Positions 10,851-62,045 of a stretch of DNA of 64,000 nt are shown here, piece by piece (within the stretch, counting starts at the first letter, position 1; each line of letters begins with the position of its first letter). The position numbers and the translations under genes are program-made. The notes under the pieces are model-generated. The model was not told the DNA's origin, searched no databases, and saw nothing but the letters and a program-made list of their open reading frames with translations. The DNA is taken from the NCBI RefSeq assembly GCF_028368935.1, contig NZ_JAQNDK010000001.1, positions 1,922,001-1,986,000 of the forward strand. The letters run 5' to 3'. Source of the DNA: Sorangium aterium (GTDB lineage: Bacteria; Myxococcota_A; Polyangia; Polyangiales; Polyangiaceae).

Positions 10851-10861
10851 GCCGGGCATCA

Positions 10862-10899
10862 GGCGTACCTCCGCGCGTACCTCCGCGCGTACCTCCGCG
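10862..10899. repeat. 12-bp tandem repeat (three copies)
   Basis: GCGTACCTCCGC is repeated three times in tandem between the fibrinogen-like lipoprotein gene and the Cys-rich gene. It could be a binding site for a regulator of the following gene, or simply slippage; nothing else in the sequence decides. Confidence 0.7.
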
Positions 10900-10944
10900 G
10901 ATTTTGTGACAATTTCCGGGAGGCTCGGGTATGCTCGCCCGGCC

Positions 10945-11466: not shown

Positions 11467-11480
11467 GGAGACCGAGACCG

Positions 11481-12131
11481 ATGCAGAGAGCGATGACATC
11501 GCAGCTTCGCGCGCCGCGCCTCCTGGCCGCCGCGCTCTCGTTCGTGGCGCTGACGATCGGGTGGACCGAGGTCGGCGAGGCGCAGATGACGATCAAGCGC
11601 CCCGGCGATCGGCCCGACTACAAGGTCGAGCTGGAGCCGCACCTCCTCCTCACGCCGTTCGAGCCGCTCGGCGGCCCCGGCGCCGGGAACGGCTTCGGCG
11701 CCGGGATTCGCGCCACCATTGAACTCGCGCCCGACGGCTTCATCAAGCGCCTCAACGACTCTGTCGGGATCGGCTTTGGCCTCGACGGCATCCACTACGG
11801 AGGGGACGGGGACTACCGCGGCGTCTGCACCCGCTTCGAGAACGGGCCCGCGGGCACGCGGATCTGCACCGAGGTCGACCGGCACGGGGCGCCCTCGGAC
11901 TACGTGTTCGGCTCGGTCGTGATGCAGTGGAACTTCTGGCTTCACCGGAAGTGGTCGGTCTTCGGCGAGCCGGGGCTGTCGCTGTACCTCGGCGACGTGG
12001 GCCGCGACGGGATCTTCGGGGTCTCACCGGCCCTGTTCGTCGGCGGGCGCTTCCACTTCACGGAGAACGTGACGCTCACGATGCGGCTCGGATACCCGGC
12101 GTTCTCGCTGGGCGTCTCGTTCCTCCTGTGA
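11481..12131 (+). CDS. exported protein, probable outer-membrane beta-barrel
   Basis: The product has 216 residues. A signal peptide (Ala/Leu-rich, cleavage near TEVGEAQ) is followed by alternating hydrophobic/aromatic strands, for example KVELEPHLLLTPF, VVMQWNFWLHRKWSVFGEPGLSLYLG and NVTLTMRLGYPAFSLGVSFLL, ending in a hydrophobic C-terminal strand typical of outer-membrane barrels. No specific family is recognised. It lies 15 bases after the Cys-rich lipoprotein gene; GAGGAGA of that junction overlaps the upstream stop and could act as its Shine-Dalgarno. A second ATG at 11493 is also possible. Confidence 0.65.
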   Translation: MQRAMTSQLRAPRLLAAALSFVALTIGWTEVGEAQMTIKRPGDRPDYKVELEPHLLLTPFEPLGGPGAGNGFGAGIRATIELAPDGFIKRLNDSVGIGFGLDGIHYGGDGDYRGVCTRFENGPAGTRICTEVDRHGAPSDYVFGSVVMQWNFWLHRKWSVFGEPGLSLYLGDVGRDGIFGVSPALFVGGRFHFTENVTLTMRLGYPAFSLGVSFLL

Positions 12132-12242
12132 ATTTCGCGCGCTCGCGGACGCCCGCGTCGTGCGCCCCCGCGCCCCTCCCGCTCGTGGAGCGCCCGCGCA
12201 CCGCTTCCCCGCGACGCCGGCCGACCTGATATCCTGCGCCGC

Positions 12243-14333
12243 ATGCCGGAGACGCCGCGATCCGAAGAGACGCTCGGCTCGGCCTTGATCGAGGACCTCA
12301 CGGTCCCGAGGCTCGGCGCGCCGGCCGCGCAGCCCATGGAGGAGCTCTCGAGCTCGGCGCTCACCGAGGACATCGAGGCGATCGAGGCGGCGGCGGCCGG
12401 GGGCGCGGGCGGCGACCCGCTGATCGGGAGCCTGATCTCGGGGCGCTACCGCGTCCACGAGCTCATCGGCGAGGGCGGGATGGGCGCCGTCTACCGGGGC
12501 GAGCAGGTGCACCTCCGCAAGCAGGTCGCGATCAAGCTGCTCCGGCCCCTCGCCCGGCGGATGCCGGAGCTCGTGGTGCGGTTCGAGCGCGAGGCCGTCG
12601 CGGGAGCGCACATCCGGCACCCGAACGTCGTCGCCGCGATCGACTTCGGTCAGCTGGACGACGCGTCGTTCTTCCTCGTCCTCGAGTACGTCGAGGGGAC
12701 GCCGCTCAAGGAGGCGATCGCGGGGGGACGGCTCCCGCCCGCGCGGGCGCTCCGCATCGCGCGCCAGATCGCGTCGGCGCTCGCGGCGACGCACGAGAAG
12801 GGCATCGTCCACCGGGACGTGAAGCCCCAGAACGTGCTGCTCGACGCGCACGATCAGGTCAGGCTCATCGATTTCGGGCTCGCGAAGGTGAACGTCGATC
12901 TCCTGTCCAGCCAGAGCCGCAAGACGGCGGCGCCGACCCCCGCCCTGACGAGCGCCGGCGAGGTCTTCGGCACGCTCGCGTACCTCGCGCCGGAGGCGCT
13001 GCGCGGGATGGACGCGGTGGACGCGCGCGCGGATCTGTATGCGCTCGGGCTCATGCTCTACGAGATGCTCACCGGACAGCACCCGTTCGGCACGAAGAAC
13101 GTGGTGGAGCGGCTCAAGCAGCAGGGGCCGGAAGGTCCGCCGGCCCTCCGCGCGCGCGCTCCGGATCTGGAGGTGCCCTACGAGGTCGAGCAGGCCGTGA
13201 TGCGGCTCATGGAGCAGGATCCGTCGTTCCGTTTCCAGACGGCGGCCGACGCCATCGCGGCGCTCGATGAGGGGCTCGCGGCGATCACGCGCGCCGCGGC
13301 GCCGGCAGGGGGCGGGATCGCCGCGGCTGGCCAGGCCCCATCGGGCGGGGCCATCGCGGCGAGCGGGGCCGCCGCGGGAGCCACCACCGCGGCGGGCCCG
13401 GGCGCCGCGGCTGGCCCGAGCATCGCGGCGGGTCCGAGCATCGCGGCGGGCCCGAGCACCGCGCCGGGCCAGGCCACGGCGGGCGGGGCCGCCGAGCAGG
13501 CTGCGAACGCGGCGCCCAGGGCTCAGGCGCCGTCTGCCTGGCCGGGGCCCCGGGCGACCTTGCTCGCGCGCGCGCACCGCCGGCCCACGGCCTCGCCGGG
13601 CTGGGTGCCCCTCGCGGCGGCGCTCTCGGCGCTGGCGGCGCTCGCGATCGGCGTCGCGCTCTGGCTCGTCGTCCGGCGGCCCGCAACGACCACGGAGACG
13701 CCCGCGCTCGCCTCCCATCTCCCGCCGGCGCTGGCAGCGCCGCCCCCTCCCGCCTCGGCGAGCGCGGCGCCCGAGGACGACGCCCGCGGCGCCCCGAGCC
13801 CGCGCGCGCAGCTCAGCCGGGCTGTGGCGACCAGGAACTGGGTGCTCGGGGCGCGGGCGCTGCTGGCCCTCGCGGAGGCCGATCCGGAGCTCGCCCTGAG
13901 CAGGGGCCTGCGCGAAGAGGTGCTCTCCACCGTGGCGGGCATCGGGTTCGAGGAGGACAACCCGGCGGCGGACGAGGTCTTCGACCTGCTCACGAACCGG
14001 CTCGGCAGCGGCGGGCTGGACGTGCTGCTCGACCTCGTGCGCGCGCGCGGAGGCACCAAGGCGGCCCGGCGCGCCAGCGAGATCCTGGCCCGGCCCGACG
14101 TGATGGCGCGCGCGACCCCCGCGCTCCGCGTCCTCTTCGCGTTCCGCAGGGCCAGCTGCGGCGGCAAGCGGGCGCTCTTCGGCCGCGCCGCGGCCGAGGG
14201 GGACGAGCGCATGCTCTTCGAGCTCCAGGTGCTGCACGGCGCGCGGTGCAGGCGGAACGATCCGTGCTGCTTCCGCGACGACAAGGCGATCGCCGACGCG
14301 ATTCAGCAGCTGAAGACGCGCCTCGGGACGTGA
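12243..14333 (+). CDS. membrane-anchored Hanks-type Ser/Thr protein kinase
   Basis: The protein has 696 residues. The kinase domain covers about 66-335 with GEGGMGAVYRG (P-loop), VAIKLL (ATP lysine), IVHRDVKPQNVLL (catalytic loop), LIDFGLAK (DFG) and an APE-type motif (YLAPEAL); all key residues are intact. A long Ala/Gly/Pro-rich linker with short repeats (IAAGPS units, 13340-13470) leads to one membrane segment near residues 450-480 (PLAAALSALAALAIGVALWLVV). The 220-residue C-terminal domain beyond it contains a Cys-rich end (CRRNDPCCF) and is probably periplasmic. This is a receptor-type kinase; neither signal nor substrate can be named. It is convergent with the 14385 gene. Confidence 0.9.
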   Translation: MPETPRSEETLGSALIEDLTVPRLGAPAAQPMEELSSSALTEDIEAIEAAAAGGAGGDPLIGSLISGRYRVHELIGEGGMGAVYRGEQVHLRKQVAIKLLRPLARRMPELVVRFEREAVAGAHIRHPNVVAAIDFGQLDDASFFLVLEYVEGTPLKEAIAGGRLPPARALRIARQIASALAATHEKGIVHRDVKPQNVLLDAHDQVRLIDFGLAKVNVDLLSSQSRKTAAPTPALTSAGEVFGTLAYLAPEALRGMDAVDARADLYALGLMLYEMLTGQHPFGTKNVVERLKQQGPEGPPALRARAPDLEVPYEVEQAVMRLMEQDPSFRFQTAADAIAALDEGLAAITRAAAPAGGGIAAAGQAPSGGAIAASGAAAGATTAAGPGAAAGPSIAAGPSIAAGPSTAPGQATAGGAAEQAANAAPRAQAPSAWPGPRATLLARAHRRPTASPGWVPLAAALSALAALAIGVALWLVVRRPATTTETPALASHLPPALAAPPPPASASAAPEDDARGAPSPRAQLSRAVATRNWVLGARALLALAEADPELALSRGLREEVLSTVAGIGFEEDNPAADEVFDLLTNRLGSGGLDVLLDLVRARGGTKAARRASEILARPDVMARATPALRVLFAFRRASCGGKRALFGRAAAEGDERMLFELQVLHGARCRRNDPCCFRDDKAIADAIQQLKTRLGT

Positions 14334-14384: not shown

Positions 14385-15308
14385 TCAGAGCAGGCCGCAG
14401 CCGTTGTAGAGCGGCAGGAGATCGCTGTCGCGCACCTCGCTCCGGATCGTCTCGGAGTAGCTCTGGACGCTCGGCCCCAGCAGCGGGCCCAGGACCGCCC
14501 CGAGCAGCGGGAGCGGGTAGCAGGTCTGGTCGCCAGCGGCGTTCTTCACGCAGGTCAGATCGCAGAGCCCCAGGAAGGCGATACCGCACGTCGGCACGTG
14601 GCCACAGAGCCGCTCCAGCGAGAGCAGGCTGAGATCGAGCGGGCAGCTCAGCGAGAGCGATGAGAGCTCCCCGGTGAGATCGGGATCGATGCAGGCATAC
14701 CCGGCGATGGTCGAGGAAAGGAACGCGTTGCCGTACATCGTGGCGTCGTGGACGACGAACTCCGAGTAGGGCTCCTCGTCCACAGGGCCATCAAGGGCCG
14801 CGTGGTTGCCCTGCAGCAAGATATCCACATGCTCGCCGGTGCCGTTCAGGTGCTGAAAGATGCACGAGGAGACCCAGCGCTGCTCCGAGGGGGTGAGAGC
14901 ACGCGTCGTCCACGCCGGCGCGAACCCGAAGGAGCCGTAGAACTTGCGGCCGTCCGGACCATACACGACCTGTTCAGAGGACAGCGCGCAGCGCACGGTA
15001 TAGTCGAGCACGCTCCTCCCACCGGAGGTGCCGAGCAGCGGCGTCGGAACCACGAAGTTCTTGGCGCCGACGAGCGCAGCCCGGCCGAGCGCTTGGAGCG
15101 CAGTGCGGTTCGCCGGCGCCCAGAAGTCGCTGGGGAGCAGGCCGTTACACCCGATGGGCACCGCAGTGCGCCGTATTGGCAGCTCCGCCGTCTCGACGGG
15201 GTCGGTGTCCGATGGAGCGTCGGGGTCTGTGTCCGACGGGGCGACGCATCCCGCCGTGAACAAACCGGCGCCAAGCAGACCAGCCGCAATGAAACGGATC
15301 GATGACAT
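14385..15308 (-). CDS. exported lipoprotein of a family duplicated at 59537 (unknown function)
   Basis: This 307-residue protein has a signal ending GLFTAGCVAPS (lipobox), then repeats of Ser-Asp-Thr-Asp-Pro, then a Cys-containing domain. That domain shares an ordered set of motifs with the protein at 59537-60454: YTVRCAL, GFAPAW, LTPSEQRWVSSCIFQHLN, a run like VDILLQGN, and YGNAFLSSTIAGYACIDPDL. No described family is recognised. ATG 15308 is preceded by GGAGGAGAG. It follows the large kinase gene (stop at 15513) on the same strand after 204 bases that include an AT-richer stretch, so it may have its own promoter. The same gene types meet at both loci, so a function linked to the kinases is inferred. 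Confidence 0.75.
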   Translation of the reverse strand: MSSIRFIAAGLLGAGLFTAGCVAPSDTDPDAPSDTDPVETAELPIRRTAVPIGCNGLLPSDFWAPANRTALQALGRAALVGAKNFVVPTPLLGTSGGRSVLDYTVRCALSSEQVVYGPDGRKFYGSFGFAPAWTTRALTPSEQRWVSSCIFQHLNGTGEHVDILLQGNHAALDGPVDEEPYSEFVVHDATMYGNAFLSSTIAGYACIDPDLTGELSSLSLSCPLDLSLLSLERLCGHVPTCGIAFLGLCDLTCVKNAAGDQTCYPLPLLGAVLGPLLGPSVQSYSETIRSEVRDSDLLPLYNGCGLL

Positions 15309-15512
15309 TCAGCTCTCCTCCGAGAAAGGCGCGCTGCCACGCACGGGCCCGGGCTCCGACACCGACCAGTGATCTCGCTCTTCCTTAAATTAACAGTCTT
15401 TCATTTCCCAGGATGCATTGCAATACCGAAAACTAGCACACGGAGGTTTGTTGCCCCTATACGGACTCGCCGGAATATCGAACGGAACGCGCCTTATCGA
15501 GTCAGGATCAAG

Positions 15513-18500
15513 TCACTGCGATACAGCTGGACGAACGTCCGGCGTCCGCGATGTCTCCTCGAGGTTGCGCTCCAGCTCGACGAAGCGGGACAGCCACAGG
15601 GGGCTGTCCCCGCGGTGCTCCCGCGCGCTCGCGAGCGCCTCCTCCGCCTCACGCGCGTGTCCGCGACGGAGCGCCATGCGAGCACGCCAGTAAAGGAACA
15701 TCAGCGTCTGCTCGGCGATCGACTGGTCTTTCGCCCGCTGGATCGCCTCGCTCCACGCGAGAGAGGACGGAGGTTCCGGCCGGAGCCCGACCTCGGAGAG
15801 CACGAGCTCGAGCAAGCCGTACTCCGTGAGATCGCCCGGCTCGAGAGCGCAGGATCGCTGGATCCACAGCACCAGCTGGCTCGCCTGCTCGTACTCGTCG
15901 AGCGCGAGGTGGATCTGCGCGAGCAGCATCGCCGTCTGGGGCATCGGGCGCTCGGAGGCCTGCTCTTCCAGCCATCGGGCGCGCCGCACGAGCGCGAGCG
16001 CCTCGCGCTGCCTGTCGCTCCAGTGCAGCAGCACGGCGACGTTGTACGAGGCCATCTTCTCCAGCCACGGATTGCCGATCTCGCGCGCGAGATCGACGGC
16101 GCGGCGCAGGTCGCCGACCGCGCCCGGCAGCGACCACCGCCAGGCCCACAGCGCGATGCGGTTGATGTACGCCCCGCAGAGGTGAAATCGATCGCCGGCC
16201 GCCGTGACCAGGGCGATCAGGTCGTCGGAGGCGCGCTCGGCGTCCTCGCGGCGGCCTGCGCTCGCGAGCTGGAACGACAGCATGATCAACGCAGGGACAC
16301 GCGCGTCGTAGTCTCCCGACGCCGCGGCGCGATCGGCGCACGCGGTGAGCTCCGCGATGGCCTCCTCGGTCCTCCCCCGCCGCCACGAGGTGCGGGCCTC
16401 GGCGACCCGGAGGCGCAGCGCGAGCTCGGGCGAGCCCTGCGCGTGCGCGTGCGCGTCGACGAGCGGCCGCGCCTCCTCCACCCGGCGCGCCGACGCCTCG
16501 AACTCGAAGGCCCAGTCGAGCACGGTAGCGTCCTCGAGCAGGAGGCTCGCCCTCGCCTGCGCGTCGCCGAGCGCCTCGGCCAGCGCGAGCGCGTCGCCGA
16601 AATCGCTCCGCGCCTCCCGGACGCGGCACATGCGGTACCGGCTCCTGCCGCGGCCCGCGAGCGCGCGCGCGCGCCGGGGCGCGTCGCCTTGCTCGGCGAT
16701 CTGGAGCGCGGCGTCGTAGCGCCGGTCGGCCTCGACGGCGTCGTGCCGCGCGGACGCGAGATCGCCGAGCGCGAGGTAGGCGTCGGCCGCCTCGGCGCGC
16801 TCGCCGCACACGGCCGCGTGGCGCGCGAGCGCGCGGAGGCCGCCGGTCGAGCCGGCCGCCACCTGCGCCCGCCAGTACGCGAGGGCGCTCCGGTGGATCG
16901 CGGCCCGGTGCGCCGGGTCGAGCATCTCGTAGACCGCCTCCTGGAGGACCGCGTTCTGGAACGCGTGCCGGTCGTCCACGCCGCCGCCGCGGCCCTCGCC
17001 GTCGCGCAGCAGGATCCGCCGCTCGACCAGGGCCGCGAGCCCGAAGCCCGCGTCGACCATCGCTCCGGCGCCGCCCGCGCGCTCCAGGCCGTCCAGCACC
17101 GCCTCGAGCTCGGCGCGATCGAACGACATGCCGAGCGCCGAGCAGACCCGGGCGCACGTCGCGAGCTCCGGCGGCAGATCGTCGAGCCGCTGCGCCGCGA
17201 GCCATTGCCACGCCGGCGCCGGCGGCAGCGCCTCGACCTCCGCGGTCGCCACGTACGAGCCGCCGCCGGCGCGCCGGCGCACGACGCCCGCGCGCTTGAG
17301 CGAGCGGACGAGCTGCCGCAGGCAATCCGGGTTGCCCCCCGCCCAGTCGGCCAGCCGGCGGAGGATCTCCGCCGGCGGGTACTCGGCCGGCAAGAGCAGG
17401 CGCGAGGCGAGATCCATCGCCGCCTCCTCCGCGAGGGGCGCGAGCGTCACGCGGGTGTGGCGCTGGTTGCGCTGACCCCAGCTGGGACGGGCCTGCTCGA
17501 AGCGAGGGCGCGCGGTCACGACCACCCAGAGGGGGGTGCCCTCGCCGTCGAGCGTGGCGTACTCGAGCGCGTCGAGCAGGACGTCGTCCGCCTGGTCGGC
17601 GTCGTCGAGGATCACGGCGAGGGGGCCGCGGCGCGCCCCGCGGCGGAGCGCCTCGGCGAGCGCCAGCATCAGGCCGTTGCGGGCCTCCCCGGCCAGGCGC
17701 CCGCCGCGGGGCCCGGCCCAGCCGAGCGCCGCGGCGACGGCCTCCCACGTCGCGCCGCCGAGCGTCTCACCGAGCCGCTCCACGCAGAACTGCCGCGGAT
17801 CTCCGGGGCTCTCCCGCGGCGCGTCGAGCGCGACGCAGAGGAGCGCGCGCACGGCCTGCGCGGCGCCGCCGTGGATGGGGTGGAGCGCGCGCACGGCCAC
17901 CACGCGCACGTCCGGGACCGGCACGCCGGCGATGCTGGCCGCCTCGGCCGCGAGGCGCGTCTTGCCGAGACCGGCGTCGCCGATGAGCGTGAACAGGCCG
18001 GGGCACGTCCCGTCGAAGGCGTCGGTCGCGCTGGCCGCGAGCGCCGAGAGCACGTCGTCGCGGCCGAGCAGCGCCGGCTCGCGCAGGCTCTCCGGGTCGC
18101 CTGGCGGCGTGGGGGCGAGCTCGTCGTCGGGTAGCGCGCGCTCGAACTCCTCGGTCATCGCGAGGCCGCCCCAGGGCTCGGCCGGCAACCACGCCTCGGG
18201 GCGCTCGACCGGCGCGCCGTAGGCGGCGTGCAGCCCGCCGGCGATCCTGCGCAGGCGCACGCTGGCGAGGTGCAGCGCCACGCGCGCGCCGCCGCTCAGC
18301 GCGAGATCGCGCGCCGCGGCCAGCGCGGCGCGGGCTGGATCGTCGACGTCCCTCGCGGAGAACACGGCGAGGCAGCGCTGCCCGCGCTGCCGCGCGACGA
18401 ACCCTCGGCGGCCGCCGATCGCCGCGATCACCGGCCCGGCGCCGCCCTCCGCGAAGAGCAGCGCGACCGGCTGCAGCCCCTCGGCGACGGCCGCCGCGGC

Positions 18501-19493
18501 GCCGTCGCCCTGCCGCTGCGATCGCGGCGCGGACGGAGGCGGGATCGAGTCGGCGCGAGGCCGCGCGCGCAGGGCGTGCAGGGTGCGCCGGAGCGCGGCG
18601 GCGCTGTCCGGGCGGCGGCTCGGGTCCTTGGCGAGGCAGGCGAGCGTCAGCGCCTCAAGCCCCTCGGGGACGTCCACGAGATCGCTCGGGCGCGGCGGGC
18701 GCAGCGCCAGGTGGCCGTGCTCGACGGCGGTCTCGCCCCCGACGAACGGCGGGCGCAGGGTGAGCAGCTCGAACAGGATCACGCCGAACGCGTAGATGTC
18801 CGCGCGCGCGTCGCTCCGCGAGGCGTCGCCCCGGAGCAGCTCCGGAGCCATGTACTCCGGCGTCCCCACGATGTCGCCGGCGCGCGTCGCGCCTGCCGGC
18901 GCGTCCGGCGGCTCGCCGCCTTCGGCGGGCCTCGCCAGGCCGAAATCGAGCAGCACCGCGCGGTCGCTCGAGCCGAGCAGGAAGAGGTTCTCCGGCTTGA
19001 GATCGCGGTGGATGACGCCGCGCGCGTGCGCCGCCTCGATCACGGCGAGGATCGCGTCCGCGCGCCCGGCGGCGCGGTCCGGATCGGGCGGCGCGCGCAG
19101 CACCGCCAGCTCCTCGGCGAGGGTCTGGCCGAAGAGCCGCTCCATCACGAGATAGGGCTGCCCCCCGGGGAGCTCGCCGCAACCGACCAGCTGCGGGGCG
19201 TGCGGCACGCCGACGCGCTCGAGCAGCGCGGCCTCCCGCCGGAACCGCTCGCGCAGGTTCCACGCCGCGTGCCTCCCCACCTTGATGGCGACCGGCGCTC
19301 CATCGCAGTCCTGCTGCGCGGCCCATACGTCGGAGAAGCCGCCATGACCGAGCGGACCGAGCAGCGAGAAGCCCTCGATCGCGGGCGCCGCGCGCTCCAC
19401 GGTGTCACGCTCACCGGGCGGCGGAACAAAGCCATCTCTGACACACGGAGCGCCAGCGGCGAGCCGCCCGTGACATACGGAGCAACGGTGCAT
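15513..19493 (-). CDS. zinc-ribbon/Ser-Thr kinase/cyclase-like/ATPase/TPR signalling protein
   Basis: The protein has 1326 residues and no membrane segment. An N-terminal cysteine motif (C4, C7, C17) precedes a complete kinase domain (about 40-310; GHGGFSDVW, VAIKV, VIHRDLKPEN, LLDFGLAR, MAPELL). Next comes a degenerate class III cyclase-like region (about 350-470) lacking the metal-binding aspartates, then an AAA/STAND-type ATPase (Walker A GDAGLGKTR near 503; Walker B AVILDDADQAD), and TPR-like helices to the C-terminus. The order kinase-ATPase-TPR resembles PknK. A paralogue lies at 55521-59528; shared details include LEDATVLDW/LDEATALDW and RVEEAR. It is divergent from the small kinase at 19606, with 112 bases between. 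Confidence 0.9.
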   Translation of the reverse strand: MHRCSVCHGRLAAGAPCVRDGFVPPPGERDTVERAAPAIEGFSLLGPLGHGGFSDVWAAQQDCDGAPVAIKVGRHAAWNLRERFRREAALLERVGVPHAPQLVGCGELPGGQPYLVMERLFGQTLAEELAVLRAPPDPDRAAGRADAILAVIEAAHARGVIHRDLKPENLFLLGSSDRAVLLDFGLARPAEGGEPPDAPAGATRAGDIVGTPEYMAPELLRGDASRSDARADIYAFGVILFELLTLRPPFVGGETAVEHGHLALRPPRPSDLVDVPEGLEALTLACLAKDPSRRPDSAAALRRTLHALRARPRADSIPPPSAPRSQRQGDGAAAAVAEGLQPVALLFAEGGAGPVIAAIGGRRGFVARQRGQRCLAVFSARDVDDPARAALAAARDLALSGGARVALHLASVRLRRIAGGLHAAYGAPVERPEAWLPAEPWGGLAMTEEFERALPDDELAPTPPGDPESLREPALLGRDDVLSALAASATDAFDGTCPGLFTLIGDAGLGKTRLAAEAASIAGVPVPDVRVVAVRALHPIHGGAAQAVRALLCVALDAPRESPGDPRQFCVERLGETLGGATWEAVAAALGWAGPRGGRLAGEARNGLMLALAEALRRGARRGPLAVILDDADQADDVLLDALEYATLDGEGTPLWVVVTARPRFEQARPSWGQRNQRHTRVTLAPLAEEAAMDLASRLLLPAEYPPAEILRRLADWAGGNPDCLRQLVRSLKRAGVVRRRAGGGSYVATAEVEALPPAPAWQWLAAQRLDDLPPELATCARVCSALGMSFDRAELEAVLDGLERAGGAGAMVDAGFGLAALVERRILLRDGEGRGGGVDDRHAFQNAVLQEAVYEMLDPAHRAAIHRSALAYWRAQVAAGSTGGLRALARHAAVCGERAEAADAYLALGDLASARHDAVEADRRYDAALQIAEQGDAPRRARALAGRGRSRYRMCRVREARSDFGDALALAEALGDAQARASLLLEDATVLDWAFEFEASARRVEEARPLVDAHAHAQGSPELALRLRVAEARTSWRRGRTEEAIAELTACADRAAASGDYDARVPALIMLSFQLASAGRREDAERASDDLIALVTAAGDRFHLCGAYINRIALWAWRWSLPGAVGDLRRAVDLAREIGNPWLEKMASYNVAVLLHWSDRQREALALVRRARWLEEQASERPMPQTAMLLAQIHLALDEYEQASQLVLWIQRSCALEPGDLTEYGLLELVLSEVGLRPEPPSSLAWSEAIQRAKDQSIAEQTLMFLYWRARMALRRGHAREAEEALASAREHRGDSPLWLSRFVELERNLEETSRTPDVRPAVSQ

Positions 19494-19605
19494 GATTCGG
19501 CTCGTCTGCCGGCAACCGGGGTCGCGGTCGACACCGGCTTACGCGTACTGTAATGCGCGGGCTCAGCAGTTGTCATTGAGGAAGTAAGCGGCTGTCGCAT
19601 ATCCC

Positions 19606-21159
19606 ATGAAGAACCCTGGCCAGAACGATGAGCTGCTTCCCGCCGCGCCGCCGGCCGACGCCCCCGCGACGGGCGAACCCCCGTTGGTCACGTCGCGGAC
19701 ATGGAAACAACACACGCCCGACACACGCGATCGCGAGGACGCCGGCCCGGGCGCCCCGCGCGCCGCGACGCTGCGGGCAGGCGAGTACCTCCTCGACGGC
19801 GTCATCGCCGAGGGGGGGTTCGGCGTCGTCCACCGCGCGGTGCACGCGGCGAGCAAGGCGCCGGCGGCGGTCAAGATCATGCACGCCGACCTGATCTCGC
19901 GCGCCGACGTGGTGCTCCGCTTCCAGCGCGAGGTGGACGCGATCGGGCGGATCCGGCACCCGAACGTCGTGGAGATCCTCGACGTCGGGCGGCTCGACGA
20001 CGGGCGGCCCTACTTCGCGATGGAGCTCCTCCAGGGCAGGAGCCTCGAGCAGCACCTGTTCGCCCGCGGGCGGCTCTCGGCGGACGAGGCGCTCGCGATC
20101 CTCGATCCGCTCTGCGGCGCCCTCGCCGCGGTCCACGCGCTCGGGATCATCCACCGCGACGTGAAGCCCTCGAACGTGATCCTGTGCGAGCGCGGCGGGG
20201 AGCTCAGGGTCGTGCTGCTCGACTTCGGCATCGCGAAGCTGCTCGGCGCGACGGATCTCTCGCTCACGTCGTCACGGCACGTCGTGGGGACGCCGGCGTT
20301 CATGTCGCCCGAGCAGCTCCTCAACCGGCCTGTCGACATGCGGACCGACGTCTATGCGCTCGGCGCGCTGCTCTACACGATGATCGCGGGATCCATGCCG
20401 TTCCTGGCGACCACGTATCCGGTGCTGCGCCACCTGCACCTGCACCAGGCGCCGCCCCGCCCGAGCCTGCACGCGCCGGTCGACCCGGCGTTCGACGATA
20501 TCGTCGTGCGGGCCATGAGCAAGGATCCCGCGGGGCGCCACCCGGACGTCGCCGCGTTCCTTGGCGACGTCCGGGCCGCGACGGCGCGGATCGCGCGGAC
20601 CGGCGCGGTGGAGGCGGGGCACATCCGGCGCCTCGCCATCGGGCTGCTCGTCGAGGTCCTCGCCGAGAGCCGCGCGCTCGAGGCCCCCACCGACGCTTTC
20701 CTGGCCGATTTCGAGGCGGTGGTCCCGGACGCCGTGGCCGCGCTCGCGCCCTCGGGGTTCTCGCCGCTCGCGATCACGAGCACCAGCGTGCTGCTCGCCG
20801 CGCCCTTTCGGCGCGACGAGCGCGGCACCGACGAGGCGCGCCACCGCGCGATCGCGGCCGCCATCGCGCTGCACACGCGGCTCGCCGGGCCGGGCCAGCG
20901 CGATCCCAGGATCAGCGTCCGCTTCTGCCTCCACGCCGGCGACGCGGTGCTCACCGAGGACGGCGTCCTGGTGGGCGGGAACCTCCTCGAGCTCTCCTCG
21001 TGCCTCCCGGAGACGGCGGAGCCGGGCGTGTACGCGTCGCCGGCCATGCTCGATGGCGTCGCGTTCCTGTCACACCGGGTCCCGGGCGCCGCCGGCGCCA
21101 CGATCCCGATGCGCCGCGTGTTCGTGCGGTCGCCTGGCCGCGCCGCGGCGCCCGCCTAG
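19606..21159 (+). CDS. Ser/Thr protein kinase with degenerate cyclase-like C-terminal domain
   Basis: The protein has 517 residues. A disordered N-terminus leads to a kinase domain (about 62-330): AEGGFGVVHRA, AAVKIM, IIHRDVKPSNVIL, LLDFGIAK, GTPAFMSPEQLL; all catalytic residues are present. The remaining 180 residues resemble the C-terminal half of class III cyclases (ISVRFCLHAGDAVL, then LVGGNLLELSSCLPETAEPG and VYASPAML) without the catalytic metal aspartates, so a sensing or partner-binding role is inferred. No membrane segment. The kinase at 60639-62045 has the same architecture. Its stop TAG is followed by AGCGGGG. The gene is divergent from the large kinase at 15513-19493, and the shared 112-base spacer suggests joint control. 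Confidence 0.88.
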   Translation: MKNPGQNDELLPAAPPADAPATGEPPLVTSRTWKQHTPDTRDREDAGPGAPRAATLRAGEYLLDGVIAEGGFGVVHRAVHAASKAPAAVKIMHADLISRADVVLRFQREVDAIGRIRHPNVVEILDVGRLDDGRPYFAMELLQGRSLEQHLFARGRLSADEALAILDPLCGALAAVHALGIIHRDVKPSNVILCERGGELRVVLLDFGIAKLLGATDLSLTSSRHVVGTPAFMSPEQLLNRPVDMRTDVYALGALLYTMIAGSMPFLATTYPVLRHLHLHQAPPRPSLHAPVDPAFDDIVVRAMSKDPAGRHPDVAAFLGDVRAATARIARTGAVEAGHIRRLAIGLLVEVLAESRALEAPTDAFLADFEAVVPDAVAALAPSGFSPLAITSTSVLLAAPFRRDERGTDEARHRAIAAAIALHTRLAGPGQRDPRISVRFCLHAGDAVLTEDGVLVGGNLLELSSCLPETAEPGVYASPAMLDGVAFLSHRVPGAAGATIPMRRVFVRSPGRAAAPA

Positions 21160-55520: not shown

Positions 55521-58500
55521 CTAGCGGCCTCGCTGCCGCTCGAGCCGCTCCTTCATCATGTTGGGGATACTCCCTGCTGCCTCGACCGCCCTCTCGAGCG
55601 CCGAGCTCGCCTCCGCGTGACGGCCTCGCCGAGACAGTGCGCGCGCCCGCGCCTCGATGACCTCGATTCGCTCCTGCCCCGCGGAGAATCGGGCCGACCG
55701 CTCCTCGAGCTCGTCCCACTCCTCGGCGCTCGCCTCCCGCGTCGCCAGGTCGATCATCGACCACTGCACCTCTTCCGCGGGGGCCATCGCCGTGTCCTCG
55801 CGCCCCGCCGCGACGGCCTTCGCCTGCTGAGCCCGGATCGCCTCGATGATCTCGCGCGCCCTGCTCTCCTCGCCGCGGTAGAGGAGCAGCCTCGCCAGGA
55901 GAAGACACACCACCGGCCGCGCCTCCTCCCCGCGCTGCTGGCGCTCCAGCGCCACGGTCCGCTCCACGTGAGGCATGGCCGCGTCCAGGGCGCCCATCAG
56001 GTAAAGGGACTCGCCCAGGTTGAACTCGCTCACGAGCTCCAGCATCCCGAGGCCCAGCTGGCGCGAGATGGTGAGCAGACGGCACATGTCGACGATCATC
56101 CCCGCGCTGTCCCCCTGACAGGCTCTGAGCAGCGCCCGGCCGTTGATCGCCGGCCCGAGGTGCAGGAGATCGCCGCGCTCCTCGCACATGCGGATCGCCC
56201 GATCCAGCGCCGCGCCTGCCTCGTCCAGCTTTCCCAGCCCCGGATAGATGCCGCCCAGGAGGAGCAGCGACACCACGAGCGTCTCGTAGCCCTCGTCGCC
56301 AAGCCCCTCTGCCTGCGCCGCCGCGCGCTCGAACTGCTGAACCGACTCCTCGTCCCGGCTCTCACGCTTCAGCGAGCGCGCCACCGCCATCGAGAGCCGC
56401 GCCGCCAGCGCGGGCGGCAGATCGCCGCGCGCGAGCGCCCTCGCCTCCTCCACGCGCTGCTTCGATCGGCCGTAGTCGTCCATCCAGTCGAGCGCCGTGG
56501 CCTCGTCGAGCAGGATCTCGATCTGCTCGATCACGTCGCCCTCCAGAGTCGCCATCGCGCGCGCGCGATCGAGATCGCCGAGCGCGTCGTGGTAGCGGCC
56601 CAGCCGGTAGCGCATCAGCCCCCGGCCCCGGTACGCCGTCCTCCGCCGCCCCCCAGGCGCCTCGACAGGCTGCGCGAGCGCCCGGCTGTAGTAGAGCTCC
56701 GCCTCCACGTAGGCGTGCCGCGTCCGCGCCCGCTCGGCGAGCTCCAGGTAGGCGTCCTCCGCGACCGTCGCGAGCCCCGCCTCCGCCGCGTGGTGCGCGA
56801 TCCTGAGCCGCCGCTGCTCCCGGCCCTCGTGAACCGCCTCGCGGTGGTGCTCGTACGCGGCCAGGTGGATCCGCCGCCGCTCGGCCTCGGCGACGTCCTG
56901 CGCGACCGCCTCCCGCACCAGCGCGTGGCGGAAGCGCAGCCGGTCCTTCCGATCGCCGACCAGCACGCCCACCTTCAGCAACCGCTCGGTCCCGACGCGC
57001 GCATCGAGCGGGAAGGCCGCGCCGTCGCCGCGGAGATCCAGCTGGCGCAGCACGCCCGCGATCTCGTCGATCGACACCTCTGCGCCAAGCAGCGAGACGA
57101 GCCGCGCGTGCGCCCCGAGCGCGGGGCCGAGCGCCGCGATCTCCGCCTGCGCCAGCGGATCGAGCGACGGCAGCACGGGGAGGCGCTCGAGCTCGTCGGT
57201 CGCCAGGTACCACGCGTCGCCCCGCAGGTGCCGGCGCAGGATCCCCTCGCGCTTGAGCCCGTGCACGAGCTCCACGAGCAAGAGCGGCACCCGCTGCGAG
57301 CGCTCGAGCAGGCGATCGATCGCCGGCTCCGGCACGTCCCGCGCGGGCAGGAGCAGCCGCCGGCACAGCGCCCGCGCGCTCTCGTCGTCCAGCGGCTCGA
57401 GCCGCAGGGCCTCGTGTCGCGCGGCGCGCTCGCCCCACGAGGGGTGCGCCTCGGCGAACGCCGGGCGCCCCATCGCGCAGACCCACAGCGGCGTGGCCTC
57501 GTCCGCGAGCGCCGCGTACTCGAGCGCAGCGAGCGTCGCGTCGTGGGCGAAGTGCGCGTCGTCGAGGAGGACGATCACGGGCGACGCGGTCGCGCACTGG
57601 CGCAGGCACTCGCCCGCCGCCCGCACGCGCGCCGAGCGAAGCGCGCCGGGCGCGGCCCGGAGCGCCTCGAGCTCGGGGAAGATGTCGACGCCCGTCTGCT
57701 CGTCCACCCATCCGAGCGCCATCGCCAGCCCCAAGCGGAGCTCCTCGCCGAGCACGGCGCCGAGCGACTCCGGGAGCGCTCCGCGGACGCCGCTCTCCGG
57801 GGGCTGCTCCGGCACGCAGAGCGCCTTGCGCACGAGCTCGTGGAGCGTCGCGTCCGACGCGCCGCTCGTGGGCTCCTGCCCGCGCAGCTCGATGATCCGG
57901 GCGTGCGGCTGCCGCTCCCGGAGCTGCTTGCCGAGCTCGACGAAGAGGCGGCTCTTTCCGTGGCCGGGCCCGCCCGTCACCGAGACGACCGTGGGCTTCT
58001 TCATGCAGAGCGCCTCCTCGGCGCTCTGCATGAGCTGCTCGAGGAGGTCGCGACGGCCGACGAACCCGCCGGGGCGCGTCGCGTCCCGCGACTGGTCCTC
58101 GATGCCCGGCGGGAGCCCGTCGCCCGCCGCGGCGTGCGACGGCTCGGGGAGCGCGGCCGACGCCTCGGGCGTGAGGAAAGGCCCCAGCGGCCCGGCGGCG
58201 GACGGCCACCGCTCGAGGCGCGAGAAGAGCGGGCTCAGGAACCGCCGCGTCCCGTCCGGGCGCGCCTGGATCGACACAGGCGCGAGATCGATGAGGACCC
58301 GCGTGCACAGCCCGCGTCGCAGGAGCTCGTCGGCCGCCCGCTGCGCGCGCCGCGCGGGGCTCGCCGTCCCCTCCTGGCCGAAGACACCCACGTAACGAGC
58401 GCCGGAGGCGTGCGCGAGCTCACCGCCGAGCGCCAGGAGCCTGCGCTGCACCGCGATGCGATCGGCCGCGCTCTCGAAGAACAGGAGCCCCGTCACGCGG

Positions 58501-59528
58501 CGCTCGATGCCGGCCGCGGAGCGGGACCCCTCACGCGCGCTCGCTGCGACCTCGTCCCGGAGCGCGCGCTCCAGCGCCACGCGGAGCTCGCTCGCGCTCG
58601 CGAACCGCTCGCTCCGTTCCTTGGCCAGGCAGCGGTGCACCACCTCCTCGACGGCCTGCGGCACGGCCGCGCTGGCCGACAGGCGCGGCGGTCTGCGGCT
58701 CCGATGGTCCTCCAGCACCGCCGCGCGCGGCCCCCAGAACGGGGGCCGGCCCGCGAAGAGCTCGTACAGGATGACGCCCATCGCGTAGATGTCGGCGCGC
58801 GCGTCGAGATCGGGCCACCCGGCCGACTGCTCCGGCGCCATGTACTCGGCCGTCCCCACGGCGAGGTCCTCGTCCTGCCCATCGTAGCGCCACCCCACGA
58901 CGCGGGCGATGCCGAGGTCGATGAGGGTCGCCTTCGCCTCATCGACGAGGATGTTCTCGGGCTTGAGGTCGCAGTGCACGTAGCCGCGCGCGTGCACGGC
59001 CTCGAGGGTCGCGAGCGTCGCGAGCCCGAGCCGGGCGGCCTCCTCGAGCTGCGGCGTGGGGCGCGCCGCGAGGCGGGAGGCAAGCGTGGGCGCGGCGATG
59101 TGCTCGATCACCACGTACGGCGAGCCGTCGTCCAGCGCCCCCCACGCGTGCACGGCCGGCACGTGGGGGGCGCCGATGGCCGAGAGCGCCTCGACCTCAC
59201 CCCGGAGGCGCTGGGCGGCGTCGCGGCGGTCGGCGCGCGCGAGCTTGATGGCCACCCGCGCGCCGCCGCCCTCCGGCTCGGCCTCGAAGACGAGGCCGAA
59301 GCCCCCCTGCCCCAGCGTCCTGCGGGTCCAGTAGCCAGGGAAACGAGGCAAGGCAACGGGGACGACCTCCGTGATCTCCGGAGGAATCGACGATTGGCCA
59401 GACGGGGGCCTAGCGGACTGCGCGCACTCGGGGCACGCGCCCTGATTCCGCCGCCCACAGGCCGGACAGCGCCCCGCTTCCCGGGCCGCGCGTTCCGGCG
59501 CCTCGTCTCGCAGCGCTTCCGAGCGCAT
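55521..59528 (-). CDS. zinc-ribbon/Ser-Thr kinase/cyclase-like/ATPase/TPR protein (paralogue of 15513-19493)
   Basis: The protein has 1335 residues. A complete four-Cys zinc ribbon (C21, C24, C32, C35) precedes a kinase domain (about 65-345; GQGGFGLVFEA, VAIKLA). The catalytic loop is YVHCDLKPENIL (HCD, not HRD) and the DFG motif is DLG (IDLGIAR); the catalytic Asp, Lys and metal Asp remain. A degenerate cyclase-like stretch (VTGLLFFESAADR, ARYVGVFGQEG) follows, then an ATPase (TGGPGHGKSRLF near 518; IVLLDDAHFAHD) and TPR-like helices. ATG 59528 lies 8 bases after the stop of the exported-protein gene, and AGGAG overlaps that stop, indicating translational coupling. Confidence 0.9.
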   Translation of the reverse strand: MRSEALRDEAPERAAREAGRCPACGRRNQGACPECAQSARPPSGQSSIPPEITEVVPVALPRFPGYWTRRTLGQGGFGLVFEAEPEGGGARVAIKLARADRRDAAQRLRGEVEALSAIGAPHVPAVHAWGALDDGSPYVVIEHIAAPTLASRLAARPTPQLEEAARLGLATLATLEAVHARGYVHCDLKPENILVDEAKATLIDLGIARVVGWRYDGQDEDLAVGTAEYMAPEQSAGWPDLDARADIYAMGVILYELFAGRPPFWGPRAAVLEDHRSRRPPRLSASAAVPQAVEEVVHRCLAKERSERFASASELRVALERALRDEVAASAREGSRSAAGIERRVTGLLFFESAADRIAVQRRLLALGGELAHASGARYVGVFGQEGTASPARRAQRAADELLRRGLCTRVLIDLAPVSIQARPDGTRRFLSPLFSRLERWPSAAGPLGPFLTPEASAALPEPSHAAAGDGLPPGIEDQSRDATRPGGFVGRRDLLEQLMQSAEEALCMKKPTVVSVTGGPGHGKSRLFVELGKQLRERQPHARIIELRGQEPTSGASDATLHELVRKALCVPEQPPESGVRGALPESLGAVLGEELRLGLAMALGWVDEQTGVDIFPELEALRAAPGALRSARVRAAGECLRQCATASPVIVLLDDAHFAHDATLAALEYAALADEATPLWVCAMGRPAFAEAHPSWGERAARHEALRLEPLDDESARALCRRLLLPARDVPEPAIDRLLERSQRVPLLLVELVHGLKREGILRRHLRGDAWYLATDELERLPVLPSLDPLAQAEIAALGPALGAHARLVSLLGAEVSIDEIAGVLRQLDLRGDGAAFPLDARVGTERLLKVGVLVGDRKDRLRFRHALVREAVAQDVAEAERRRIHLAAYEHHREAVHEGREQRRLRIAHHAAEAGLATVAEDAYLELAERARTRHAYVEAELYYSRALAQPVEAPGGRRRTAYRGRGLMRYRLGRYHDALGDLDRARAMATLEGDVIEQIEILLDEATALDWMDDYGRSKQRVEEARALARGDLPPALAARLSMAVARSLKRESRDEESVQQFERAAAQAEGLGDEGYETLVVSLLLLGGIYPGLGKLDEAGAALDRAIRMCEERGDLLHLGPAINGRALLRACQGDSAGMIVDMCRLLTISRQLGLGMLELVSEFNLGESLYLMGALDAAMPHVERTVALERQQRGEEARPVVCLLLARLLLYRGEESRAREIIEAIRAQQAKAVAAGREDTAMAPAEEVQWSMIDLATREASAEEWDELEERSARFSAGQERIEVIEARARALSRRGRHAEASSALERAVEAAGSIPNMMKERLERQRGR

Positions 59529-59536
59529 TCACGCTC

Positions 59537-60454
59537 CTATGGGGCGGCCGTCAAGAATGTGGTCACCACCTGATCCGTGCGGACATAAGGGCTGACAACA
59601 TAATTCGTGACACACCCCCTGAAGTAGCCGCCGTTGGTGTCTATCCCGTTGCACAGCTGATTGCACGAGCCCCAGATCACCATGGAGCCGCACTGTTGCC
59701 AAGTGACCTCCCCGGTCGTCGGGTTCGTCTCGACGTGGCCGGCCGCGCAGTCGCGCTGCAACTGGCGCGCACGAGCGTAGCCCACCGAATCGTAGCAGGC
59801 CCCCAGGTAGGGTGTCGAAGCGAACACGTTCCCCCAAAAGGCGCCCTCTCTCACCGGATAAGCCGCGCGCTCCGCCGGACTCGACGACATCTCGTTGTTG
59901 CGCAGGGAGATGCTCACGGTAACGCCGTACCAGTTTACCCGTGCGGCGAGGCACGCCGAGATCTGATGCTGGACATAGGTATCGTTGCTGATGCCGCCGC
60001 TCGCCCACCAGTGCGCGTAGCCGAGGTCGCCGCGGTACACCTCCGGGTGGGCAACGCCGCTGCTGTCGGTCCATGAGAACGAGAACGTCTGGTCGGGGCG
60101 CAGCGAACAGCTCACGATGTAGCGCAGGAGCTCCCTCGACACGGCGCCGGTCGTTCCCGGATCCTTGATGGCCGTCAGCGCGTTCGGGAGCAGCGCGTTC
60201 GGGAGCAGCGCGTTCGGGAGCAGCGCGTTCGGGAGCAGCGCGTTCGGGAGCAGCGCGTTCGGGAGCAGCGCGTTCGGGAGCAGCGCGTTCGAGAGGAAGC
60301 CGTTCGTGGAAATGAGCTCGCCCTCGGCCTCCCCGACGAGCTCTTCTTCGCCGACGAGCCCCTCCGCCTGCTCGTCGAGCTCGGCACCGATGCAGGCAGC
60401 GGTAAGCAGAGGTAATGCCAAGACCGCAACACCTCGTGAACAGCAAAGAACCAT
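59537..60454 (-). CDS. exported NALLP-repeat lipoprotein (paralogue of 14385-15308)
   Basis: The product has 305 residues from ATG 60454 (GGGGGA upstream); an ATG at 60472 adds MKRGTI. The signal ends ALPLLTAACIG (lipobox). An acidic stretch (AEGLVGEEELVGEAEGEL) and seven Asn-Ala-Leu-Leu-Pro repeats lead to a Cys-containing domain that follows the order of the 14385 protein: YIVSCSL, GDLGYAHWWASG, ISNDTYVQHQISACLAARVN, YGVTVSISLRNNEM, YPVREGAFWGNVFAST, YLGACYDSVG. Function unknown; it should be outside the cytoplasmic membrane. It is coupled to the large kinase downstream and divergent from the kinase at 60639. Confidence 0.75.
   Translation of the reverse strand: MVLCCSRGVAVLALPLLTAACIGAELDEQAEGLVGEEELVGEAEGELISTNGFLSNALLPNALLPNALLPNALLPNALLPNALLPNALLPNALTAIKDPGTTGAVSRELLRYIVSCSLRPDQTFSFSWTDSSGVAHPEVYRGDLGYAHWWASGGISNDTYVQHQISACLAARVNWYGVTVSISLRNNEMSSSPAERAAYPVREGAFWGNVFASTPYLGACYDSVGYARARQLQRDCAAGHVETNPTTGEVTWQQCGSMVIWGSCNQLCNGIDTNGGYFRGCVTNYVVSPYVRTDQVVTTFLTAAP
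60181..60285 (-). repeat. 15-bp tandem repeat (seven copies) encoding Asn-Ala-Leu-Leu-Pro
   Basis: Seven identical units of CGTTCGGGAGCAGCG run without a break, with a degenerate eighth unit at 60286. They code for the five-residue repeat of the lipoprotein at 59537-60454. Perfect DNA identity, not just protein identity, points to recent expansion by slippage or selection for copy number. Confidence 0.95.
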
Positions 60455-60638
60455 GATGGTCCCCCTTTTCATCGCCGCGTTTTGGCGTTTAAGGTCGAGT
60501 AGCCGCAAAGTTTAAGTTACCATTTCGAAATGCTTCTGCATAGCGCTTTAGTAAAGGATGCGTTCGATCCGGAGCGCGCGCTGGCAGCGGCACTGTAACG
60601 CACCGCGACGCATCACGACGCACGGCGCGGAGGGGCAG

Positions 60639-62045
60639 ATGAGCGACGAAGAGGACGAGACCAGGCCGTTTTCGGATTTCGAGAGGTCGGCCGCGCGCGG
60701 CGAGTTCCCGCCGGGGACCCTGGCGGGCGAGTACATCCTCGAAGGATTCATCGCGCGTGGCGGCTGCGGCGTGGTCTACGGGGCGAGGCACGTCCGATCG
60801 GGCAGACCCGCCGCGGTCAAGGTACTGAGCGAGGCGGTAGCCCACTCTCGCCGGGTAGTCGATCGGTTCGCACGCGAGATCGATGTGCTGCGGTCGATAT
60901 CCCACCCCAACATCGTGGAAATCTACGGAGTTGGTGAGCTGAACAACTATCAGCCGTTCTATGTCATGGAGCGCCTCGAGGGCCAGACGCTCGACGCGTT
61001 GATCCGGTCCGAGACGCGGCTCACGCAGCGCGAGACGCTGGAGTTGATGGAGCCTGTGTGCGCGGCGCTAGCAGCCGCGCACACAGCTGGCATCGTTCAC
61101 AGGGATGTGAAAGCGAGCAACATCTTCATCTGCTCGGGCCCGCCACGTACCGTGAAGCTGCTCGATTTCGGAATCGCGAAGATGATGGCGCCCGAGGAGG
61201 GGTCGACATGGCTCACCACGGCCGGACGTATGCCCGGGACGCCATCCATCATGGCCCCAGAGCAGATCCTCGGCGGTCCCATCGATGCGCGGGTGGACGT
61301 CTATGCGCTTGGCGTCCTCCTTCATCGCATGCTGGTGGGCCGGTTGCCGTTCCACACGCACGACATGGATGAGATGGTGCGGAAGCACTTGGAGGAGCAG
61401 CCGCTGCCCCCGAGCCTGCGGGTCCCGCTGCCCATCGAGCTCGACGCGGTGGTGCTGCGGTGCATGGAGAAGCGGCGGGAGCGACGCTTTGGCTCGGTCG
61501 AGGAGCTGATGCGCGCGCTCAGGGACGCCATCGGCGGGCCCGCGTCGGGCATGCCGAGCGGGCCCGACCCGACGCACCCTGCGGTGGCGGTCTACCTGGA
61601 GGTCCGGACCCGCGGCGACGCCGGCGAGCTCGACGACGCGTTGACCTTCGATATCGGTCGGGTGCTCGATATCGCCGAGTCACAGCTCTCGCGCGCCGGG
61701 TTCATCCTGGCGTCGATCACGGGCAACGAGGTGCTCGGCGTTCGTCTCCTCCCGGCAAACGCGGCAGAGGCGCTGCGGGAACGGCGCGCTGCGATCGAGC
61801 TCGCGACCGCCGTGCACCGCGCGCTGGCCCAGCGACCGGAGGCGGACCCGCGGCTGCACGTCAACGTGTGCGTGCACGCGGACGACGTGCAGGCGCGCCT
61901 CTCGATGCAGCCCGAGATCACCGGGGGCGCGCTCATGTGCGCGGGGCACTGGGCTCCGGCCGACGACGTGCAGGGGGTGTTCGCGACGCCGAGCGCGAAC
62001 GCGGGCCTGCTGGACGACGAGCCGACCCCCACGCGCCGCGCGTAG
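60639..62045 (+). CDS. Ser/Thr protein kinase with degenerate cyclase-like C-terminal domain (paralogue of 19606-21159)
   Basis: The protein has 468 residues. The kinase domain covers about 28-300: ARGGCGVVYGA, AAVKVL, IVHRDVKASNIFI, LLDFGIAK, GTPSIMAPEQIL; catalytic residues are present. The C-terminal 160 residues mirror the tail of the 19606 protein (HPAVAVYLEVRTRG, LHVNVCVHADDVQARL, GGALMCAGHWAPADDVQGVFA), a cyclase-like fold without catalytic aspartates. No membrane segment. GGAGGGG precedes ATG 60639; an upstream frame to 60558 is rejected. It is divergent from the coupled lipoprotein/kinase pair, with about 180 bases between. Confidence 0.88.
   Translation: MSDEEDETRPFSDFERSAARGEFPPGTLAGEYILEGFIARGGCGVVYGARHVRSGRPAAVKVLSEAVAHSRRVVDRFAREIDVLRSISHPNIVEIYGVGELNNYQPFYVMERLEGQTLDALIRSETRLTQRETLELMEPVCAALAAAHTAGIVHRDVKASNIFICSGPPRTVKLLDFGIAKMMAPEEGSTWLTTAGRMPGTPSIMAPEQILGGPIDARVDVYALGVLLHRMLVGRLPFHTHDMDEMVRKHLEEQPLPPSLRVPLPIELDAVVLRCMEKRRERRFGSVEELMRALRDAIGGPASGMPSGPDPTHPAVAVYLEVRTRGDAGELDDALTFDIGRVLDIAESQLSRAGFILASITGNEVLGVRLLPANAAEALRERRAAIELATAVHRALAQRPEADPRLHVNVCVHADDVQARLSMQPEITGGALMCAGHWAPADDVQGVFATPSANAGLLDDEPTPTRRA

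Follow-up and report, generated by a model that had tools for sequence, protein, structure and literature searches.

Two Hanks-type kinases and an exported lipoprotein encoded by a recurrent gene trio in Sorangium

Why do the genes of two kinases and an exported lipoprotein lie together twice within 64,000 nucleotides of the Sorangium aterium genome? The stretch analysed here, referred to as the window, spans C1:1922001-1986000 of a genome of 13,472,481 bases in seven contigs. Each of its two gene trios encodes an exported lipoprotein (LP), a protein of approximately 1330 amino acids (aa) containing zinc-ribbon, kinase, cyclase-like, ATPase and TPR regions (LK), and a small kinase with a cyclase-fold tail (SK). 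To our knowledge, few eukaryotic-like kinases of Sorangium have an assigned circuit. PMC3696898 gives their numbers as 508 in So0157-2 and 317 in So ce56. We show that the linkage of SK, LK and LP is specific and repeated, that their descent is correlated, and that their domain make-up is conserved. A preliminary description of the window had proposed a signalling module of three genes present twice; both trios are real, and the count was too low, as the genome contains eight.

Linkage and descent of the trio

The eight trios of the source genome were identified without a gene caller. Open reading frames (ORFs) were stop-to-stop frames scored by profiles made here (LK above 200 bits, LP above 25, SK tail above 15), and the counts therefore depend on these thresholds. 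The whole SK2, searched against 150 of 398 candidates, matched 76 kinases at E≤1e-40; in the best eight, the match runs far into the tail, to at least residue 467. Four further kinases reach SK2 residues 411-436, so that a profile of the tail provides a cleaner test. Among the candidates scored (59 of 370), it retrieved the same eight genes and none other at E≤1e-5. The ATPase/TPR part of LK2 gave ten matches at E<1e-27, nine of them long and one split (C6:290163-292241), set apart from the next at 6e-17. The paired kinases are thus members of their own families, and not random kinases of the same genome. All eight SK genes have an LP match at a distance of 50-4612 bases and a match to the LK ATPase/TPR part at 1572-2629 bases. 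An LP lies within 7 kb of only 3 of the 68 other listed kinases, compared to 8/8 SKs (Fisher p=8.8e-9), and a random 1.4-kb place is within 7 kb of an LP in 2.1% of trials. The co-occurrence of the three genes is far above that expected from kinase abundance and holds across genera, in agreement with the conserved module that had been proposed.

The six ORFs of the two window trios are all open (Table 1). The resemblance between the paired proteins, noticed earlier, is borne out by alignment: LK1 and LK2 align over nearly their full length (34% identity, 462 bits), SK1 and SK2 are 38% identical over 427 residues, tail included, and LP1 and LP2 belong to one family, with 28% identity over 130 residues of the Cys-rich core (E=3e-8 in a single comparison). 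The coordinates also confirm that the LP gene is positioned on opposite sides of LK at the two loci. The order is LP1-LK1-SK1 in the first trio, with 204 nt separating LK1 from LP1, and LK2-LP2-SK2 in the second, where LP2 is located 8 nt upstream of LK2. LP2 probably starts at the ATG at 60472, position 60508 being only the end of a longer, TTG-initiated frame. The frame of SK2 is open from 60558, and a start at 60639 is favoured by the family alignment.

Table 1 Genes and regions of the two trios in the window
Feature	Position	Strand	Description
LP1	14385..15308	-	Exported lipoprotein; lipobox TAGC, Cys-rich core, without NxLxx repeat array
LK1	15513..19493	-	1326 aa; Zn ribbon, Hanks-type kinase, cyclase-like region, AAA_16 ATPase, TPR-like region
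SK1	19606..21159	+	517 aa; small Hanks-type kinase with class III cyclase-like tail; divergent from LK1, gap 112 nt
LK2	55521..59528	-	1335 aa; domains as LK1; kinase HCD and DLG replace HRD and DFG
LP2	59537..60472	-	Exported lipoprotein; lipobox TAAC, NALLP pentapeptide array, same Cys-rich core as LP1
SK2	60639..62045	+	Small kinase with cyclase-fold tail
SK2 tail	61530..62042	+	Class III nucleotide-cyclase fold (predicted structure)
LK2 cyclase-like region	58074..58526	-	Between kinase and ATPase; from profile comparison, weaker evidence

LP matches in the source genome number 15 with LP2 and 15 with LP1 as the query, giving a union of 18 places, 14 of which were aligned. A kinase frame is present within 1.6 kb of the LP at 15 of the 18 places and within 5 kb at 16. 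Most of the LPs outside trios adjoin other kinases of approximately 1100-1600 aa, and those at C1:2012260 and C1:1275104 have no kinase in the 20 kb examined. Two LK copies are without an SK. The copy at C5:569224 has an LP and is without the N-terminal Zn ribbon; that at C6:334738 (8657-12772 of locus L172, equal to G000 C6:334657-338772) contains the ribbon and lacks both LP and SK over the 20 kb examined. A different lipoprotein-like frame converges on this latter LK. A single open frame of 1729 aa at C2:630745-634998 looks like a fusion of LK and LP, a reading that was rejected. The interdomain stretch reads by eye as an out-of-frame continuation, and we therefore regard the joined frame as a frame change, either a sequencing error or real.

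The SK tail profile identified SKs in 9 of 59 relatives, the source genome counted. These are all six members of the genus that were drawn (8, 7, 4, 5, 8, and 8 copies); the other three belong to the same family. We combined all 39 SK loci outside the source genome with one from a draw across the phylum into a set of 40 loci from nine genomes, five of them of one genus. SK is accompanied by both LK and LP at 27 loci, by LK only at five, by LP and another or cut kinase at four, by a kinase fragment only at two, and by neither at one; the remaining locus is a short contig with only a tail fragment. Where at least 7 kb is available on both sides (29 loci), LK is present at 28 and LP at 25. LP and LK share a strand at 27/27 SK loci that have both, with LP as the middle gene in 14 and LK in 13, and SK is opposite to LK at 29/32. 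Divergent members of the phylum also carry the trio, with SK tails that are clear in L107, L112, and L122 and weak in L106 (31 bits) and L169 (16 bits). The tails of L089, L102, and L111 are similar by eye, with a profile score that is not convincing. In the phylum draws, 12 SK-tail and 9 LP candidates were scored per genome, and the LP draw recovered 9 of the 18 LPs of the source genome; the SK tail in at least 2 and LP in at least 8 of 282 genomes, the source genome included, are therefore lower bounds.

We also collected 76 named loci starting from LP. They were found through one peptide motif among the best 80 of 108 relatives, and the set therefore favours typical LPs. An LK-type gene is present within 6 kb at 38 of these loci, another kinase at 18 more, and none at 20; SK is present at 25, likewise within 6 kb. 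The named and genome-drawn loci overlap (L052/L124, L067/L128, L068/L130, L109/L163, L114/L164), so that the sets are not independent, and two of the nine LP loci of the phylum draw are apparently already in the named set. Locus L109, labelled as a metagenome-assembled genome (MAG) of Klebsiella pneumoniae, carries a myxobacterial-type LP. Its counterpart L163 (40,363 bases) is located in the same-phylum genome G105, and the label is probably wrong.

The descent of the three genes was compared in 45 modules, 11 of which were hand-chosen from the 76 named loci. The distance matrices are correlated (Mantel tests) at 0.79 for SK-LK, 0.78 for LP-LK, and 0.67 for SK-LP, each at the permutation floor of 0.0005. 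Among seven modules of the source genome, the correlation is 0.77 (p=0.003) for SK-LK and 0.54 (p=0.02) for LP-LK; the eighth (L032/L038), split between two pieces, was excluded from the Mantel tests. LK1 groups with LKs of four other genomes of the genus (L142, L144, L146, L153), and the LK2 module (L031) with modules of three (L123, L125, L131). A quick LK tree, for which the program warns of long branches among divergent rows, requires at least three changes of the gene order (SK-LP-LK or SK-LK-LP); the shuffled mean is approximately 15. The minimum number of changes is three on the SK tree and four on the LP tree. As the order changed at least three times and the linkage was kept, we argue that linkage is under selection. 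These observations argue for trios that are old, maintained in parallel, and re-ordered without being split.

Domain make-up of the three proteins

The two kinases are assigned by their sequences to Hanks-type (PknB-like) Ser/Thr kinases. The Pfam Pkinase profile, with a cut-off of 31.7 bits, scores 138.3 for SK1, 151.8 for SK2, 117.8 for LK1, and 119.8 for LK2. The catalytic Lys, Asp, and Asn and the metal-binding Asp are invariant in 8/8 aligned SKs. In the predicted structure of the SK2 tail (pLDDT 91.7), the tail has the fold of class III nucleotide cyclases. Its best Foldseek match has an E-value of 2.4e-6, and structural comparison with cyclases gave a Z of 13.3 and an rmsd of 3.6 over 148 aligned residues, with all 50 matches listed being cyclases. 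The sequence profile of the tail matched no chain in the PDB at E≤10. Tail positions 24 and 66, assigned by eye to the cyclase motif, are taken here to be the first and second metal-aspartate sites, respectively. The presumed first site is Asp or Glu in 25/27 aligned tails. The presumed second site is Asn, Thr, Ala, Ser, or Gly, and not Asp, in at least 26/27. With the positions so placed, the SK tail does not have the two metal aspartates of class III cyclases.

The LK protein is composed of a Zn ribbon, recognized from the alignment, a kinase domain, a middle region, an AAA_16 ATPase detected by Pfam in both window proteins, and a TPR region. Pfam TPR matches exceed the cut-off in LK2 only, and those of LK1 are below it. 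The four catalytic residues of the kinase and the Walker A Gly and Lys are invariant in 8/8 aligned LKs, and LK2 retains the catalytic Lys/Asp/Asn/Asp despite its HCD and DLG variants. The N-terminal CxxC...C ribbon, searched as a regular expression, is present in 41/45 module LKs. At LP loci without SK, it is found in 7/12 strongly scoring LKs and 0/23 weakly scoring big kinases. The middle region has no Pfam match in 30 members. Its alignment to the SK tail by hhalign is weak (probability 54%, P=1.3e-4), and its best PDB profile match, also weak (E=0.45), is to a cyclase; the region is likely, on this weak profile evidence, a further diverged cyclase domain.

The LP protein is classed as a bacterial lipoprotein by its predicted signal peptide and lipobox Cys. 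A loose regular expression, which sometimes takes an earlier Cys, finds the lipobox in 12/14 aligned LPs of the source genome, the set comprising all but four of its LPs. The signal peptide is often followed by a pentapeptide array (NALLP, NALNP, NGLGT, NRLAV) and then by a Cys-rich core with eight columns invariant among 76 sequences. The arrays (N-x-L-x-x) keep a five-residue period, vary in letters and length, and resemble pentapeptide repeats. LP1 and LP2 have no match in Pfam or NCBIfam, and the core has no PDB sequence match at E≤10. Among the 76 LPs, Pfam at E≤0.01 finds only GLTT (4), Lamprin (2), and Adipokin_hormo (1), which we consider short-repeat or chance matches. The model of the mature part of LP2 has a pLDDT of 86.4, with block means of at least 90 from residue 61 on, and no Foldseek match in the PDB at E≤0.001. 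In terms of these sequence comparisons, LP is a family without a name in Pfam, NCBIfam, or the PDB. A fold assignment by VIA-align was discarded, as the best match (MfpA, Z 3.0) is too weak to use. Fused domains gave no indication of function either, since nine of ten long LPs have no Pfam match and one has Big_7, GLTT, and others; nor did the neighbours of 14 LP loci without a nearby kinase, as we found by eye none in common. The C-terminal array of the LP in L043 (9004-10737) resembles FG-GAP/VCBS-type repeats by eye and has no Pfam match.

Possible function of the trio

We hypothesize, with a probability of approximately 45%, that the trio is one functional module inherited as a unit, in which LK and SK would form a cytosolic two-kinase switch and LP would be its dedicated envelope output or client. 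As a STAND-type ATPase/TPR protein with a Hanks-type kinase, LK may be the sensor arm, and SK its partner kinase, the two meeting through their cyclase-like domains. Known class III cyclases work as dimers. LP is predicted to be the only exported product and is usually encoded next to LK on the same strand; it could be the envelope protein dedicated to the module, with the kinases setting its amount, modification, or export. A hydropathy scan found no convincing membrane anchor in either kinase. A direct link between LP and the kinases through the membrane is therefore unsupported, and LP is more likely a co-expressed output or client than a direct receptor. The mechanism put forward in the preliminary description, with an envelope protein acting on a cytosolic two-kinase switch or under its control, is plausible. 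With cytosolic kinases and an exported LP, the link could run through transcription, through LP before its export, or through an unlinked membrane protein, of which the first two routes need the fewest extra parts.

Several observations weigh against this hypothesis. LP is not strictly kinase-bound. The 20 named loci with an LP and no kinase within 6 kb comprise 11 whose flanks reach 6 kb or more on either side and nine with shorter flanks. The preliminary description held that an LP family found mostly without either kinase would speak against a module. This is not the case in the source genome or in the named set (a kinase within 6 kb at 56/76); distant members of the phylum come closer to it, as the LP loci of the phylum draw outside the source genome have an adjoining kinase at 4/9 and none at 5/9. 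Among the 29 SK loci with full flanks, no recognizable LP was found at four (L135, L137, L148, L162) and no LK-type gene at one (L157). LP and LK are on different strands in L065 (Minicystis) and L107 (a MAG). The SK-LP correlation is weak among the seven modules of the source genome (0.15, p=0.24). A 19-residue hydropathy window exceeds 1.6 (up to 2.25) in 4/8 SKs and 5/8 LKs, although the scan is crude and these segments map by the alignments to the kinase, tail, ATPase, or TPR parts. The cyclase-like region of LK, one half of the proposed contact, comes from weak profile evidence, and we infer the coupling of LP, LK, and SK from linkage, descent, and domain make-up.

It is also possible, but in our view unlikely, that LP is the input of the system. 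It would then be a sensor in the envelope, and its ligand state would be relayed to the cytosolic kinases by an unlinked inner-membrane protein or by peptide fragments. The ATPase and TPR domains of LK suit the sensing of a ligand. LP is an exported protein, and in 108/108 module pairs its core shows less conservation than the ATPase/TPR part of LK, as is often the case in surface sensors; the comparison favours LK, since the pairs were picked at an LK identity of 0.55-0.93. However, the kinases have no convincing anchor, and no membrane transducer recurs in the clustering of neighbouring ORFs of at least 130 aa, judged by eye. We give least weight to an export checkpoint, in which the cytosolic kinases and chaperones would bind unexported LP and signal secretion stress. 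The TPR repeats of LK and the J-domain gene that adjoins LP in four distant loci (L089, L102, L111, L118) are in line with it, and the latter fits the handling of LP before export also under the output hypothesis; however, these four loci are the only source of the clustered J-domain family, to which no Sorangium trio contributed.

A role in anti-phage defence or conflict, with the kinase pair released to arrest growth, appears improbable. A single PADLOC profile of the PD-T4-6 defence kinase clusters, PDLC04041, covers SK over nearly its full length (SK2 31-477 at 415.6 bits, SK1 54-470 at 330.8 bits). However, this name is a clustering label shared by many kinase clusters, the profile gives lower-scoring matches to LK as well (169 and 166 bits), and LP has no PADLOC match. 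The PD-T4-6 of E. coli is a single-gene phage defence without LK or LP. According to PMC11341870, the kinase-kinase-phosphatase (KKP) module of prophages defends against phages and consists of three linked genes, including two Ser/Thr kinases with divergent C-terminal domains that are predicted to form a heterodimer. The third KKP gene encodes a phosphatase, and its kinase tails are FHA and CSD domains (PMC11341870), whereas the trio has a lipoprotein and an SK tail with a predicted cyclase fold; among the nine window proteins scanned with Pfam, none had an FHA, CSD, or phosphatase domain. In multicellular bacteria, conflict systems that combine kinase, cyclase, and STAND parts have been described (PMC7159879). 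KKP modules are found mostly in prophages (PMC11341870), whereas the trios form orthologous groups that recur across one genus, unlike patchy defence genes. The neighbour clustering, examined by eye and not as a systematic scan, contains no recurrent toxin, nuclease, or phosphatase family. Less probable still is that the linkage reflects descent only, with an ancestral neighbourhood duplicated en bloc and three proteins that act separately. The copies are indeed paralogous sets with correlated trees, but their linkage has survived the changes of gene order, and it is kept in the divergent phylum members L107, L112, and L122 and, with weaker tail matches, in L106 and L169.

The TOMM kinase/cyclase fusion (TIGR03903) resembles LK in having an N-terminal kinase followed by a cyclase-like/ATPase-type region, and two stretches of LK2 match the model, the best at 481-951. 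The scores of LK1 (164.6 bits) and LK2 (153.4 bits) are below the curated cut-off of 705.75, and the TOMM kinase/cyclase description is not known to include LP and SK partners. With MalT, PknK-type kinases, and similar STAND regulators (see also PMC4381067), LK shares the combination of ATPase and TPR used for sensing. It differs from them by the Zn ribbon and the cyclase-like region, by the lack of a DNA-binding domain above the Pfam cut-off, and by its ties to SK and LP. Kinases, cyclase folds, and STAND-like proteins are thus known kinds of component. In searches of the open-access literature, we recognized no description of the fixed trio or of the LP family among the titles and abstract openings listed.

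The trio suggests an uncharacterised signalling device. Tentatively, and with more doubt than attaches to the module itself, we speculate that it represents a new tripartite class in Myxococcota, in which two kinases joined by retired cyclase domains would act with an exported protein whose fold is new in parallel, vertically inherited channels, forming up to eight insulated kinase-kinase-envelope circuits per Sorangium cell. A module with fixed partners would break a diffuse kinome down into pairs that can be tested: every one of the eight paralogous sets predicts partners among kinase, kinase, and envelope protein, and insulation can be tested against cross-talk. If the pairing is true, the cyclase-like tails would exemplify an enzyme fold taken over as a connector. 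The LP family also offers structural and functional studies a new target.

Genes adjoining the trios

Neighbouring genes were clustered from filtered ORFs, with 22 clusters listed and families named by eye. A fourth conserved component of the Sorangium trios was sought in these clusters and rejected, as none is common to most trios. A histidine-kinase-like family is present in 23 loci, two families are present in five loci each, and the smaller groups look like synteny.

In the window, a further Ser/Thr kinase of 696 aa (12243-14333, plus strand) converges on LP1 and has, by eye, a hydrophobic segment after the kinase domain. SK2 is adjoined by a probably exported zinc metalloprotease-like protein (62087-62938, minus strand; Peptidase_M10/Astacin matches). 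A TPR-rich gene (53246-55432, plus strand) is located just downstream of LK2; its homologues are found near modules L054 and L055, and it may be an extra partner in that group.

In other loci, a gene that looks by eye like that of a sigma factor is positioned some kb from the LP or trio in L037, L045, L067, L070, L071, and L072. One gene family adjoins LK-type genes in L070 (15450-16334), L071, L086, L087, and L090, in several cases flanked by two big kinases that converge. The J-domain (DnaJ) gene adjoining LP is located at 3388-4068 of L089, 8319-8972 of L102, 3144-3797 of L111, and 1525-2187 of L118.

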